Source: Lactiplantibacillus mudanjiangensis (GTDB lineage Bacteria; Bacillota; Bacilli; Lactobacillales; Lactobacillaceae). Taken from it: DNA of 64,000 bases. Position 1 is the stretch's first letter, and each line of letters starts with the position of its first letter. Below, one piece after another: positions 9,019 to 64,000 of the stretch. Both the position numbers and the translations under genes were made by a program. Location: NCBI RefSeq assembly GCF_005405385.1, contig NZ_BJDY01000005.1, forward strand, positions 124,001 to 188,000, read 5' to 3'. The notes under the pieces are model-generated. The model worked only from the letters and a program-made list of their open reading frames with translations. It was not told where the DNA came from and searched no databases.

Positions 9019-9254
9019 CTAAAAATATATCGGTAAGAAATTTACTCGAACTGTCTCGAGTCACCTCCATCAGCCAGCGATTCTGGTTATCTTGTGATCG
9101 TTAATTGATTCAGTAACCATCATAACCAAGAGTGAGTCCACATTGAATCCCTTGGCTCGAACAGTCCCAGCGTTTCGGCTCAAGGTGGGCAAACGACAGG
9201 TAGCAAGTCGAACCGATCAGTGATTATGGCTAAAAAGTCACTTGCAACCTTTAG
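9019..9254 (-). repeat. Dispersed hairpin repeat, copy A (degenerate)
   Basis: Inverted relative to the copy at 57246. Shared blocks, read on the minus strand, are GCCCACCTTGAGCCG near 9196-9182, CAATGTGGACTCACTCT near 9147-9131 and a GAATCGCTGGCTG-like block near 9084-9072. The end CTTGCAACCTTTAG at 9241-9254 matches the family's inverted end. It fills most of the pyrP-upp gap and has no coding potential. The left boundary is uncertain. Confidence 0.6.
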
Positions 9255-26284: not shown

Positions 26285-26393
26285 ATTATGCTGCTTGCCA
26301 CCTGACCTAAAACGCTGTGGCTGGACTTACTCTCGATTATATTCGTGATCACAAACTTACTGCGATATAACCGGAACCAGCCAGTGCTACCGC
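26285..26393 (+). repeat. Dispersed hairpin repeat, copy B (fragment)
   Basis: Contains GCTTGCCACCT, AACGCTGTGG, GGACTTACTCTCG and AACCGGAACCAGCCAGTG in the same order as the copy at 57246, with the intervening parts missing. Neither inverted end is recognisable. Confidence 0.6.
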
Positions 26394-26405
26394 CATATTT
26401 ATCTT

Positions 26406-26798
26406 TCAATTTTTAATTAACTGCTTTAAAACCGACGTGGGGACTTCAGTTGCAGGAACTGCTGACCATGATTCAACATTTTGCCCTTTGGTTTCAATCT
26501 TCAAATAGCGTTGCACCTTCAAGCGCTTTTGCGCATCAAATGTTAGCAAACGCTGACGACCAGTATCATCAATTGTTTTGATCCGATAAGTGTATTCATC
26601 TTCGCCAGCACCACCAATTCGATGACCGATTGGCCGATTAGTCACGCCATAAACGGTCGTCACTTTGACCAACGGATTAACATTGTCCAGCGCCATTGCC
26701 AATTCACCGCTTTGATTCTTCGTCATCGCCGCTGAGCCAAATAGTAGACCAGCACCAATTCCCACAATCGCTAATAAACTAATCATCCCTTTTTTCAT
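26406..26798 (-). CDS. YxeA-like secreted or membrane-anchored protein (DUF1093)
   Basis: 130 residues from ATG 26798 (MKKGMISLLAIVGIGAGLLFG), with GAGGGGG upstream. The N-terminal hydrophobic helix is either a signal peptide or an anchor. The body carries VYGVTNRPIGHRIGGAGEDE and the YLKIETKGQNVESW stretch, which resemble the DUF1093/YxeA family of ~110-residue exported proteins with an OB-like fold. Function unknown. Divergent from the deacetylase gene at 27028. Confidence 0.75.
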   Translation of the reverse strand: MKKGMISLLAIVGIGAGLLFGSAAMTKNQSGELAMALDNVNPLVKVTTVYGVTNRPIGHRIGGAGEDEYTYRIKTIDDTGRQRLLTFDAQKRLKVQRYLKIETKGQNVESWSAVPATEVPTSVLKQLIKN

Positions 26799-27876: not shown

Positions 27877-28377
27877 CTAAAGGAGGTCATGCTAAATTGA
27901 TCACCTACGCCAGCCAGTGATTCTGCCGGCTGTGGGGACCGGCTCCAGCCAAAGAACGGGCTGCCACCTCACTTTTGAGCCTAGCCAAAACCACTAGTCT
28001 CAAAAGTCGTCCACATCGTAAAGTCCGGGAAAATCACCCGGACTAACGATGTTGTCACGGCCGGCGCCATCACTGACTGGCTCCGGTTAGATGTTAATCA
28101 AGTTTGTAGTCACTAACATAGCCGAGAATGAATCCACATTGAGCCCAACCGTGGGGGCTCTTAGCGATTTATCGCTTAGAGCTTGGCGCTTTTGAAACAT
28201 GGGTTAGGTGGTTCAAAACGACGGTTCAGAACGCTGTGGCTGAACCGGCCCGTCCACAGCTTTTCGGCTCAAGGTGGGCGAACGGTAGGTGGCAAGTATG
28301 ACTAGTTTTGATCAGCAATATTCTTCTTATCAACGATTTCAACGATTATTGCTAAATAAGTAGCTTTCAATCTTTCG
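27877..28377 (-). repeat. Dispersed hairpin repeat, copy C (near full length, inverted)
   Basis: About 500 bp starting three bases after the deacetylase stop. Collinear over most of its length with the reverse complement of 57246-57766. End motifs CTAAAGG (27877-27883) and CTTTCAATCTTTCG (28364-28377) are degenerate forms of the family ends. Contains perfect hairpins such as GTCCGGG/CCCGGAC and GCTCT.AGCGAT/ATCGCT.AGAGC. No conserved ORF. The flanks (27869-27876 and 28378-28385) are AT-rich without a clean duplication. Confidence 0.8.
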
Positions 28378-34102: not shown

Positions 34103-34311
34103 TAACATATCTAAAGGTTGAAAGCTAGGTTTTAGCAATAATCGCTGATATGATAAGCATTCATCGATCAAAGGTAATCATACTTGCCACCTACCGTTCG
34201 CCCACAGCCGGCAGAATCGCTGGCTGGCGTAGGTGACAATTTAATCCAACTTAAGTCAATGTTGGTAAGGTTTCGACCAATACATTTAACTTTTAACCTT
34301 TAGTAACATAT
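34103..34311 (+). mobile_element. Short deletion derivative of the dispersed repeat, copy D, with 8 bp flanking duplication
   Basis: The element spans 34111-34303 (193 bp). Ends CTAAAGGTTGAAAG and, inverted, CTTTTAACCTTTAG. It matches copy E for its first ~100 and last ~100 bp but lacks the ~330 bp middle; the junction is at CCGTTCGCCCAC/AGCCGGCA. Both sides carry the direct repeat TAACATAT (34103-34110 and 34304-34311), as expected of a target duplication. Non-coding. Confidence 0.8.
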
Positions 34312-57238: not shown

Positions 57239-57773
57239 CTGATATCTAAAGGTTGAAAGCTAGGTTTTAGCAATAATCGTTGATATGATAATCATTCATC
57301 GATCAAAACTAGTCGTGCTTGCCACCTACCGTTCGCCCACCTTGAGCCGGAACGCTGTGGGCGGACCGATTCAGCCAAAAGCGGTCTGAACCGTCGTTTT
57401 GAACCGCCTAACCCGCGTTTCAAAAGCGCCAAGAGCTCCCACGGCTGGGCTCAATGTGGACTCACTCTCGGTTTGATGGTGATTACGAAATTGATTGGTA
57501 GTCGCAATAAAACCGGAGCCAGCCAGTGATGGTGCCGGCCGTGAAAACATCGTTAGTCCGGGTGGTTTTACCGGACTTTACGATGTGGACGACTTTTGAG
57601 ACTAGTGGTTTTGGCTAGTCTCAAAAGCGAGGTGGCAGCCCGCACTTTGGCTGGAACCGGTCCCCACAGCCGGCAAAATCGCTGACTGGCGTAGGTGATC
57701 AATTTAGCATGACTTAAGTCAATTCTAGTAAAGTCTTTACCGTTAGACTTAACTTTCACCCTTTAGCTGATAT
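57239..57773 (+). mobile_element. Dispersed hairpin repeat, copy E (full length) with 7 bp flanking duplication
   Basis: Element 57246-57766, 521 bp. Ends CTAAAGGTTGAAAG and, inverted, CTTTCACCCTTTAG. Flanked by CTGATAT on both sides (57239-57245, 57767-57773). Interior is a chain of stems, e.g. CTTTTGAGACTAG/CTAGTCTCAAAAG (57593-57627) and GTCCGG/CCGGAC inside CATCGT..ACGATG (57548-57585). No ORF shared with copy C, so non-coding. A transposase acting in trans is inferred. Confidence 0.8.
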
Positions 57774-57777
57774 AACA

Positions 57778-57827
57778 AAAGTACGTATCACAATACTCAT
57801 CATGAGTGTTGTGATACGTACTTTTTT
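57778..57827 (-). terminator. Terminator of the polysaccharide operon
   Basis: Very strong ~24 bp stem, GTACGTATCACAA..ACTCAT / ATGAGT..TTGTGATACGTAC, directly after the GH8 stop. Confidence 0.9.
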
Positions 57828-61570: not shown

Positions 61571-64000
61571 TTAAAATTTACGTTGACGCTTCGTTGAAAA
61601 ACCTAATACCGTCATTAAACCGGTCATGAGTAAACCTAATCCGGTCCATGCTGCATTTTTATCTGATTGTTCATTAGTTTGTGGCAATTTCGCTGCTGTA
61701 TGAGTTGTTGGCGTTACCTTCACCGCCGTTACCACTGGTGTCCGCATCATTGTCGTGGTAGTCATCACTGGCGCTGACTGTAAGGTCGTTGATTTCGCCG
61801 TCATAACGGTTTTGCCTTTAGCCGGTTGCCCACTATCAACATCAGTTGGTTGATTGGTAACCTGAATCGTGTCAGCTTGACCATCATCAGTTAAGACACC
61901 GTCATCCTTTGGTGTGGATGTGGCTGGTACTTGGATGTTCAAGTGATCATCTTCAGCATCAGTTGTCGGCGTGGTTACCGTTGTCTCATTGTTATTTCCA
62001 TCATCCGGGACAGTTACGGTTGTCTCGCCGTTGTCTCCGTTATCCGGATCGGTCACTGTTGTACCACCGTTATTCCCGTTATCCGGATCAGTTACCGTTG
62101 CACCACCATTATTTCCGTTGTCTGGGTCAGTCACAGTTGACCCACCATTGTCTCCGCTATCCGGATCAGTTGGCTTTAGAGTATAGGTCACAACGTTTGT
62201 CACATCGGCACTCGTTGGCGTCACGGTCACTGCTGGCAACTGTGTTTGATCCGCAGTGTAACCCGTTATTGTTGGCACAGTTACCGCGGCAAACTGATCA
62301 TTGTCGGACTGCCAAGCACTATAAGTCACCAGTTGTGTGACAGTATCTAGTTGACCCGTCCGAGTAAAGATGACCGTTGACTGTTGGTCAGGCGCCAACG
62401 TCTTGCCAGCTTGATCAACAAACTGAATCGTCCGTGTCACAACTTTTTGTAATTGATCTGCCGCCGTTACAGCTTCCTGACCATGTTGTAAATGAACGAT
62501 ATAAGTCGTTGGCGTTGCGGTGTAGGTTGCCCCAGTAGTTGGCCAGTCATCTTGAACCAATTGATAACCTCCAGCTACATAAGCCGCAATTTTTTCAGCG
62601 GTCGTATAATCACTAGTCGTTCCCTGATCACCAGTTAACGTATCCGTTGCCAGCGTTTCGCCAGTTATATCATCTAAATAATTAACGATCACGCTGCCTT
62701 GAACAACCGGATCCTTCGTGTAAACATAAGTAACGACCCCATTTGCGGCGGTTAATGCTCCGTTGGCCGCCAAACCAGTTGGGTCCATGTGACTGTAGGT
62801 GTAGCCCGCAAACGTTTTAGCCGTAGTTTGATAGCTCAAGCCCACATATTGACCATTAGGATAAGTCGCTGTCGTCGTCCCTAACACTTTTTGATCGGTA
62901 TCCACATAGTTCACGGTCACCGCTCCAGCAGCCGTTTTAGGGAGCAACATAATATATAAAGTTTGCGGATCTTGACCGAAAGTCCCGGTTACTGGACCGT
63001 TAGTGGCATAGGTCAAGTAATTGTCCACATTTAAGTAACTACTCAAGTCAAAAGCATCGCCCAAATTCACACCATCAATCACTTGATCTGGCAAAGTCGC
63101 GATTGGTTGTGCATTCTGATCAACATATTTAACAGTGACCGTCGGATGTGCTTGGAAATTAACTTGTTGGTAGATCATGGCATCGGCCCGTAATTCGACA
63201 CCATTATTATAAGTGACGTCAATGTAACGATCTGCTTGCCAACCATCTGAATAAGGAACCCCTAAGTTACCATAAACAATGAAACCAGGCACATTGCTGA
63301 TTTGCTGAATATCACTAATTTGATATTGATTATTGCCTAACATCGTAATTTGTTGTTTTCGTTGCGCCACATTGTTAAACGAATAGCCAAAGGTATCGCC
63401 AATCGCCTCACCTTGTACCCCAGTAATAGTTGTTCCGGTAAACGTCGCCGTCTGATTCTCAACCACATTAATTGGATTAGCCGCATCACTACGCCGAACA
63501 ATCATTTGACCAACGGCCGCAATGAAAACACCAGACTTGGTAATGCCTGATAATGATGAAAAATCTGAAAGACTATTGTTGCTTAGACCAATATAGTTAT
63601 TCGAAAGATTATTATTGCCAATGGCCGTAATCCAAGGACTTAATTGGACCAATTGCGCATTTGTCATCCCAAATTGGTGACCTTGATACGAACCGGCATT
63701 ATCGTTTAAATCGATAAAACTAATCGAACTTGGATCAATTTCGGTTAATGGTTGTAAGTTAACATAGCTTAAAGCCGTTGCTTCCACCGTTAGCCGATAG
63801 AGGCTCAAACTTGCCAATGGACTCAAATCAATACTGGTCATCGCATTGTTAGCAATCCGCAGTGTTAAATCTAGCTTATATTTGCTAGGTAAATACTGCA
63901 ATCCTTCAATCCCAGTTAAAGTCGTAATTGGCGTGGTATCGGTGCTAATTTGGAGCCAATTTCCTAATTTATAGTTTCGAATAGCACCGACAGTAATCGG
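61571..64000 (-). CDS. LPXTG-anchored adhesin with LRR-like and MucBP domains, 5' part off the window
   Basis: The frame is open to the right edge (809 codons visible); the TTG at 63901 is internal, not the start. From the edge: internalin-like leucine-rich repeats (LTGIEGLQYLP, SIDLSPLASLSLYRL), a beta region, two MucBP repeats (VTVKYVDQNAQPI, VTVNYVDTDQKVLG) with a further related VIVNYLDDITGE unit, a Mub B2-like domain (RTIQFVDQAGKTL...GYTADQTQLPAV), five 13-residue DPDNGNNGG-type repeats, a Thr/Pro-rich wall-spanning part and a sorting signal: LPQTN, hydrophobic helix, KRQRKF. Sortase would attach it to the wall; a role in mucus or host adhesion is inferred. Confidence 0.93.
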   Translation of the reverse strand, partial: PITVGAIRNYKLGNWLQISTDTTPITTLTGIEGLQYLPSKYKLDLTLRIANNAMTSIDLSPLASLSLYRLTVEATALSYVNLQPLTEIDPSSISFIDLNDNAGSYQGHQFGMTNAQLVQLSPWITAIGNNNLSNNYIGLSNNSLSDFSSLSGITKSGVFIAAVGQMIVRRSDAANPINVVENQTATFTGTTITGVQGEAIGDTFGYSFNNVAQRKQQITMLGNNQYQISDIQQISNVPGFIVYGNLGVPYSDGWQADRYIDVTYNNGVELRADAMIYQQVNFQAHPTVTVKYVDQNAQPIATLPDQVIDGVNLGDAFDLSSYLNVDNYLTYATNGPVTGTFGQDPQTLYIMLLPKTAAGAVTVNYVDTDQKVLGTTTATYPNGQYVGLSYQTTAKTFAGYTYSHMDPTGLAANGALTAANGVVTYVYTKDPVVQGSVIVNYLDDITGETLATDTLTGDQGTTSDYTTAEKIAAYVAGGYQLVQDDWPTTGATYTATPTTYIVHLQHGQEAVTAADQLQKVVTRTIQFVDQAGKTLAPDQQSTVIFTRTGQLDTVTQLVTYSAWQSDNDQFAAVTVPTITGYTADQTQLPAVTVTPTSADVTNVVTYTLKPTDPDSGDNGGSTVTDPDNGNNGGATVTDPDNGNNGGTTVTDPDNGDNGETTVTVPDDGNNNETTVTTPTTDAEDDHLNIQVPATSTPKDDGVLTDDGQADTIQVTNQPTDVDSGQPAKGKTVMTAKSTTLQSAPVMTTTTMMRTPVVTAVKVTPTTHTAAKLPQTNEQSDKNAAWTGLGLLMTGLMTVLGFSTKRQRKF
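61973..62167 (-). repeat. Five 39 bp in-frame tandem repeats in the adhesin gene
   Basis: Encodes 13-residue units: DPDSGDNGGSTVT, DPDNGNNGGATVT, DPDNGNNGGTTVT, DPDNGDNGETTVT, VPDDGNNNETTVT. Middle units are most alike, consistent with expansion by slippage or recombination. Acts as a spacer through the cell wall. Confidence 0.88.

Follow-up and report, generated by a model that had tools for sequence, protein, structure and literature searches.

A probable MITE-like element with IS4-type ends and a conserved two-arm cargo in Lactiplantibacillus mudanjiangensis and its relatives

The element and its copies

The stretch of Lactiplantibacillus mudanjiangensis DNA analysed here (64 kb, hereafter the window) contains a 521-bp element at positions 57246-57766, which starts 13 bases past a stop codon and faces a terminator-like hairpin and a convergent gene on its 3' side. 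The heptamer CTGATAT lies directly outside both ends, on the left at 57239-57245 and as an exact repeat on the right at 57767-57773, and the hairpin that adjoins the insertion, identified from the sequence and a nearest-terminator scan, occupies 57774-57827, outside the element. The left terminal inverted repeat (CTAAAGGTTGAAAG, 57246-57259, plus strand) is matched at 13 of 14 positions by the right one (CTTTCACCCTTTAG, 57753-57766, minus strand). Direct reading of the sequence gave exactly the coordinates that the initial annotation had assigned to the inverted ends and the 7-bp repeat.

Inside the repeats, an AT-rich left end region (57260-57317, plus strand), which old copies keep poorly, and an AT-rich right end region (57700-57752, plus strand), assigned by copy comparison to type A of two right-end types, enclose a GC-rich core of two inverted arms and a spacer (57318-57699). 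The core is common to other species, and the match boundaries of copies with decayed ends cluster there. In a complete arm, a stem is topped by three hairpins, in the order GCTGTGGGGACC, hairpin 1 with AGCCAAARNRCGGTCT, CTCG, hairpin 2, CGTCC, hairpin 3 and TTCACGGC. Arm 2 has a complete inner three-hairpin unit on the minus strand (57538-57670; R1 match of 120.7 bits, E 2.1e-35, the arm itself being in the model seed) within an outer stem of about 57520-57690. The inner unit of arm 1 (57354-57445, plus strand; R1 match of 47.2 bits) has largely lost its third hairpin, which other copies have, in agreement with the earlier remark that whole stems differ between copies.

The element is non-coding: its longest stop-to-stop frame has 81 codons, and the whole element folds with z = -11.9 under DNA parameters and -11.4 under RNA parameters, with 0 of 100 shuffles as stable in each case, as expected from the initial description of stems rather than a reading frame. 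Arm 2 alone gives z values of -7.0 and -5.5 on its two strands, and the deleted arm 1 does not stand out from its shuffles (z -1.3, with 19 of 200 as stable).

The window contains five copies or pieces in plus and minus orientation, in line with the at least five copies in both orientations counted initially. A second copy, internally deleted with its ends kept, lies at 34111-34303 (plus strand) within an 8-bp duplication, TAACATAT. A third, with one end decayed, spans about 27886-28377 (minus strand) and has both arms (27929-28061, which is in the model seed, and 28148-28260). DNA matching together with the end search located a partial copy with one end, CTTGCAACCTTTAG, at about 9082-9254 (minus strand), and a weak short fragment with a degenerate end lies at about 26322-26416 (plus strand; E 9.6e-5). 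Ends with at most two mismatches number seven in the window and 0-4 in ten mononucleotide shuffles. Elsewhere in the window, 39-bp tandem repeats lie at 61973-62167 within a 776-codon frame on the minus strand.

The initial annotation had proposed a search of the genome and related species, and further copies are present in both. The window's genome (G000) has 132 single ends with at most one mismatch (63 + 69), compared with 0 + 0 for the reversed control. A DNA search that scored 40 of 222 candidates gave at least 41 matches there. A candidate long transposon between distant ends in the same genome (C5:242419-246094) turned out to be two separate elements. When 55 copies from this genome were compared with their consensus, the 33 with decayed ends had identities of 0.915 in the core and 0.806 in the ends, and the 22 with intact ends 0.933 and 0.912, where the end figure has a floor because even copies in which no end is visible, L022 among them, score about 0.71-0.72 there. 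Vestigial CTAAAGG ends are visible in many of the decayed copies.

Cross-tabulation of the right-end type with an arm-2 marker in 30 copies, 7 of them unclassifiable, gave 10 A/T, 7 B/T, 4 B/deltaT and 2 A/deltaT, the marker being one base that may have arisen twice. The occurrence of all four combinations suggests recombination among copies, so that homogenisation rather than selection may explain part of the conservation of the core.

Insertion sites and a partner insertion sequence

Duplications flank 29 of 33 copies in the window's genome (13 of 7 bp, 12 of 8 bp, 3 of 9 bp and 1 of 5 bp; 4 copies had none) and 12 of 14 in genome G001 (4 of 7 bp, 6 of 8 bp, 1 of 9 bp and 1 of 5 bp; 2 had none). 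Duplications of 7-9 bp are thus found at 39 of 47 insertions with good ends in the two genomes, counted on copies picked for recognisable ends, with one mismatch tolerated at 7-9 bp and an offset of at most two bases. An empty site was identified in L. daowaiensis (G003), where both flanks of the window copy are in synteny and the element is absent; in L. songbeiensis (G017), G004 and G006 the left flank alone aligned, and these genomes are not counted as empty sites.

Among the loci examined, insertion sites are mostly at gene 3' ends. Both neighbours could be called at 48 of 51 loci, of which 20 are convergent, 25 tandem and 3 divergent, the calls being longest open frames rather than annotations and the arrangement figures having no background. 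Under four strict settings, a terminator-like hairpin was found beside 16, 14, 22 and 18 of 47 sites (0.34, 0.30, 0.47 and 0.38), whereas the same settings gave 0.13-0.18 for positions shifted by 30-120 bp and 0.12-0.17 for randomly drawn intergenic positions in the window. These settings replaced a permissive scan, in which 41 of 47 sites scored but so did 62% of random intergenic positions, and give a lower share and a higher contrast. Neither of two insertion sites of the related insertion sequences (IS) described below passed the strict terminator test, one of them having an off-by-one boundary.

An IS with the same terminal bases, which the initial annotation had suggested looking for, was found in genome G004, and a related one in G001. 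The G004 copy (C61:3234-4798) is a 1565-bp end pair around a 451-aa transposase and looks intact; its ends are identical to the 14-bp ends of the element, including the left repeat of the window copy. The transposase matches NF049925 (IS4 family) with an E value of 2.1e-144, also matches PF13546, and has an exact YREK motif (YGRRWQIECYFKVAK) and the spacing D106D114E. The ISPepr1 subgroup is characterised by a length of 1500-1600 bp, the motif Y(2)R(3)E(6)K, the spacing D(60-110)D(100-150)E, ends of the form YT-AA-YTT---A and direct repeats of 7-8 bp (PMC2266710). The G004 end, CTAAAGGTTGAAA, agrees with seven of the eight fixed positions, position 7 being G and not Y, and the direct repeat at its ends is only 5 bp (TTTAA). 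Length, YREK motif, DDE spacing and seven of eight end bases would make the partner IS an ISPepr1-type member of the IS4 family.

The G001 protein is 56% identical to that of G004; its IS has ends at C1:64426 and 65992, one of them with one change, and a 7-bp duplication, ATAGGAG. This IS, with an open transposase frame, stands beside 14 elements fetched from G001, of which the full-length ones are 89-99% identical. IS and element have only about 14-18 terminal bases in common. Among 21 genomes of the genus, 17 have at least one match to the end sequence with at most one mismatch, and 9 of the 21 show a clear excess over the reversed control, the end numbers in about half of the 17 being no higher than that control. 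The transposase is found at E<=1e-20 in 5 of the 21 genomes. The window's own genome is not among them; it has at L066 (C2:537300-539400) a deleted IS relic with the same end, two pieces of which show 80% and 79% identity. L. plantarum and L. paracasei plasmids (NZ_CP035114.1, NZ_CP080339.1 and NC_021722.1) also contain pieces with 98-99.6% identity to the G004 IS, and such plasmid-borne pieces are a possible route of spread.

Taken together, these observations make a strong case for reading the element as a transposon. The initial annotation had taken it to be mobile and had named a lack of further copies, a lack of empty sites or homology to a decayed transposase gene as grounds against its reading. 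The mobility is borne out by the common ends of the copies, the duplicated targets, an IS bounded by those ends and one empty site; further copies exist, and no such homology was seen. The element is probably a MITE-like derivative of an ISPepr1-type IS4 element, mobilised in trans. As the best explanation overall, we consider it very likely that a MITE-like cut-and-paste transposon with IS4/ISPepr1-type ends carries a conserved two-arm cargo. An ISPepr1-type IS4 transposase would have moved the non-autonomous element in trans, as the same 14-bp ends suggest, and transposition would make the 7-9 bp duplications, with insertion mostly at the 3' ends of genes and in many cases next to an intrinsic terminator. 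The cargo between the ends would be two inverted arms whose fold was kept while the stem sequences changed.

Distribution of the arms and other vehicles

At a threshold of E<=1e-4, and with no more than 13 scored places in any genome, the arm covariance model matched 61 of 251 Lactobacillaceae genomes, in 11 of 40 genera; at least four of these 61 genomes had contributed seed arms. In the window's genome, all 150 scored of 868 candidates matched at E<=2e-16, so that the number of arms is at least 150. Some members of the genus (G016, G018 and G019) gave no matches to the arm model. The named relatives include L. daoliensis (G002), L. fabifermentans (G005), L. herbarum (G007) and L. xiangfangensis (G020) and, outside Lactiplantibacillus, Levilactobacillus fuyuanensis (G035) and Companilactobacillus hulinensis (G240). 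Of 123 stretches with a short motif, taken from the matches listed in a pattern scan of named genomes and from a viral scan, 37 fit the element profiles; all of these are labelled Lactobacillaceae, including metagenome-assembled genomes (MAGs) called Lactobacillus sp. Several motif-bearing Lactobacillaceae stretches (for example L191, L194, L237 and L262) had no match to the profiles, nor did any of 18 viral contigs with the motif. The window element had no match among plasmids and phages, and a MAG element none among plasmids.

The vehicle (the IS4-type ends) and the cargo (the arms) are separable. Six stretches from Levilactobacillus, Companilactobacillus and a MAG showed no CTAAAGG end even with three mismatches allowed, and because stretches from other genera carry the cargo without these ends, the cargo is wider and probably older than the vehicle. 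In L. fabifermentans, the element has 37 DNA matches, compared with only 1 + 1 CTAAAGG ends. Two genomes of the genus of L. fuyuanensis, G214 and G245, have the core within ends of its own, CTGGYCGCCTTACCGTTCG, present as 111 and 113 single ends with at most two mismatches and 0 in the controls. Inverted repeats of about 20 bp, CTGGYCGCCTTACCGTTCGC, were seen at the core ends in these genomes, for example at L294, L295 and L297. Five arms lie within 8 kb at L226 (L. fuyuanensis, 8 kb). One-arm-only matches occur beside two-arm elements at L149, L152 and L155 in L. herbarum, where a single arm may be a unit of its own.

The different ends, the six stretches without CTAAAGG and the imbalance in L. 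fabifermentans are the features expected if the core were a mobile unit with its own ends and mover that was captured by an IS4-type MITE in Lactiplantibacillus. That a third genome has 21 of the CTGGYCGCCTTACCGTTCG ends and a fourth, L. fuyuanensis G035 itself, has 0 (where the control gave 1), that no duplication is visible by eye at these ends in genomes of its genus, and that end-decayed copies in the window's genome often show vestigial CTAAAGG ends all count against such a unit, which we regard as conceivable but doubtful.

Fold of the arms, strand symmetry and known systems

From 52 arms chosen at loci of Lactiplantibacillus, Levilactobacillus, Companilactobacillus and MAGs, 46 had the bounding motifs and 42 were aligned (set A1), the truncated, deleted or overlong arms that were left aside being that at window positions 57354-57445 and one each of L091, L145 and L175. 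These 42 arms represent at least three genera. Two-sided changes affect 26 of their 30 base pairs, and 91.7% of cells pair compared with 71.7 after shuffling. There are 272 cells with two-sided changes, compared with 79.6 after shuffling (0 of 500 shuffles reach 272) and 29-65 with the partners slid; a count of further pair types separates more weakly (61 against 55.6, with 8 of 500 shuffles as high). These figures are not probabilities, since the sequences are related and the structure was derived from the same alignment.

Twelve distinct copies from L. herbarum, retained from 15 long copies after those with runs of N were dropped, contain 1343 Watson-Crick cells, compared with 1236 after permutation (sd 7.5, maximum 1258). 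The separation is weaker for the copies of the window's genome (3938 against 3882, maximum 3910); the figures are 1234 against 1224 (maximum 1231) for G001/2 and 836 against 821 (maximum 835) for the end-decayed cores of the window's genome. Divergence of the paired columns in the copies of this genome (0.088) is almost that of the unpaired ones (0.110), and in the end-decayed cores the paired columns are the more divergent (0.108 against 0.071). The junctions GGGACC, CTCG and CGTCC and a bulged base in hairpin 1, mostly T, are largely kept across genera although unpaired. In relatives from several genera it is the fold of the arms, rather than their sequence, that is conserved, and covariation across the 42 arms and the L. 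herbarum copies backs the conserved stems of the initial annotation more strongly than the comparison on which that claim was first made.

A role of the arms in an RNA of one strand should leave G-U replacing Watson-Crick pairs more often than A-C. A count over whole elements (193 to 219 in the window's genome and 20 to 20 in G001/2) was dropped in favour of counts per arm and in a common arm frame, because the inversion of the arms makes such a test cancel. In the common frame, 138 arms (set A2, the 138 distinct sequences among the best 150 of 192 matches, fitted to the model) gave 85 G-U and 78 A-C cells, with 7 pairs leaning to G-U and 12 to A-C, and the 42 arms gave 13 and 24. All pairs of the model structure together gave 113 and 160, of which 40 A-C cells come from one pair. 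Treated alike, tmRNA from 30 genomes of the same family gave 17 and 5 (9 pairs against 1), a small control in which, as in the arms, cells are not independent. Reading the opposite strand turns the arm counts into 78:85 and 160:113, so that the lean is at most 1.4, compared with 3.4 for tmRNA; the 160:113 is a mild lean against clean symmetry. Counted on the plus strand, arm 2 and arm 1 gave G-U to A-C ratios of 67 to 35 and 23 to 34 in the window's genome, 26 to 16 and 17 to 18 in L. herbarum, and 7 to 10 and 9 to 9 in G001/2.

That G-U is not above A-C in the common frame speaks against selection for an RNA of one strand, and fits folded DNA, a role on two strands or templated repair of palindromes; a role in transcripts of both strands would look equally symmetric. 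The hint of an RNA-level role in the initial annotation is unsupported as it was stated, given the 85 to 78 in the arms and the 17 to 5 in tmRNA. The arms could nevertheless be structured RNA in read-through transcripts, for example 3'-end barriers or insulators, which would be usable in either orientation because the arms are inverted. The preponderance of convergent and tandem neighbours over divergent ones, the strong covariation with its conserved junctions, and the G-U leans of arm 2 on the plus strand in the window's genome and of the opposite model frame are all in keeping with this. No frame comes near the tmRNA ratio, however, and no Rfam family scored above gathering on the elements examined: at gathering score the window yielded only tmRNA and two tRNAs, four loci of its genome at E<=1 yielded four matches, all below gathering, and in seven loci of relatives at E<=0.1 the T-box and the TPP riboswitch that were matched lie outside the elements, whereas the two matches that fall on an element, the same one in both cases, score below gathering. 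On this balance we judge a structured RNA to be unlikely.

We give a similarly low rating to the arms being a neutral passenger, functionless palindromes perfected by hairpin-templated replication repair, with copies homogenised by recombination. Covariation without wobble bias and the four combinations of right-end type and arm-2 marker are what this process would leave; compensatory changes could stem from template switching, and with recombination likely, selection on the arms is unproven. Templated repair would, on the other hand, be expected to erase or free the junctions and the hairpin-1 bulge, which persist across genera, and the cores of decayed copies are still at 0.915, compared with 0.933 in intact ones, while the ends drop from 0.912 to 0.806. 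A decayed transposase gene or other coding relic, which the size, like that of internally deleted IS copies, might suggest, is refuted at the sensitivity used and hardly deserves weight, since no frame exceeds 81 codons, a tblastn search of the element with the IS transposase gave no credible match (best E 0.16, to the family consensus), and a covarying fold is present instead.

The reading that we prefer, tentatively and short of calling it probable, is that the arms act in the form of folded DNA, or equally on both strands. A more specific version is rather unlikely as it stands: the mirrored three-hairpin cloverleaves would be a structured DNA module whose folded strands are recognised by a protein and which changes vehicles between genera. 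With the same reserve, the carriers of such a module would be IS4-type MITEs in Lactiplantibacillus and another carrier with ends of about 20 bp in Levilactobacillus.

Text searches of the literature gave no description of this element family. Like MITEs, it has no transposase frame, inverted ends shared with an IS, target duplications, a high copy number and an empty site; its interior differs in being a covarying two-arm structure rather than an IS remnant, shared across genera and found also outside these ends. REP/BIME, ERIC, BOX and RUP repeats are intergenic, palindromic and present in many copies, like the element, which differs from them in its length of about 520 bp, its two inverted three-hairpin arms and its IS4-type ends. 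The MIC231 and IS231 cassettes of the Bacillus cereus group (IS4 family), reportedly described by Chen in 1999 and De Palmenaer in 2004, likewise have IS4-family ends around a cargo without transposase; the element has far more copies than MIC231-type cassettes, its cargo is non-coding and its ends are ISPepr1-like rather than CAT ends. PMC2266710 gives CAT... ends and 10-12 bp repeats for the IS231 type, whereas the element has CTAAAGG ends and repeats of 5-9 bp. The ISPepr1 subgroup resembles the autonomous partner in size, YREK motif, DDE spacing, a 7-bp duplication in one of two copies and AT-rich targets; the element itself is without the gene, and one of the eight fixed end bases differs (PMC2266710). 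For the covarying STAXI motif, its authors weighed single-stranded DNA, yet saw features favouring RNA (PMC2864571); that motif consists of pseudoknot repeats beside DNA-handling genes, whereas the arms are the cargo of a transposon.

At least 150 folded arms in a single genome come from one kind of element, which lies mostly at gene 3' ends among the loci examined. It combines a transposon mechanism of a known kind with a non-coding structure that is conserved, and offers a test case for telling conservation of a fold at the RNA level from conservation at the DNA level. An influence of the arms on recombination, replication or transcript ends, should there be one, would help to shape how these genomes function and change, and if the folded-DNA module is true, the arms would represent a dispersed class of DNA structure that covaries without wobble bias and is not RNA.
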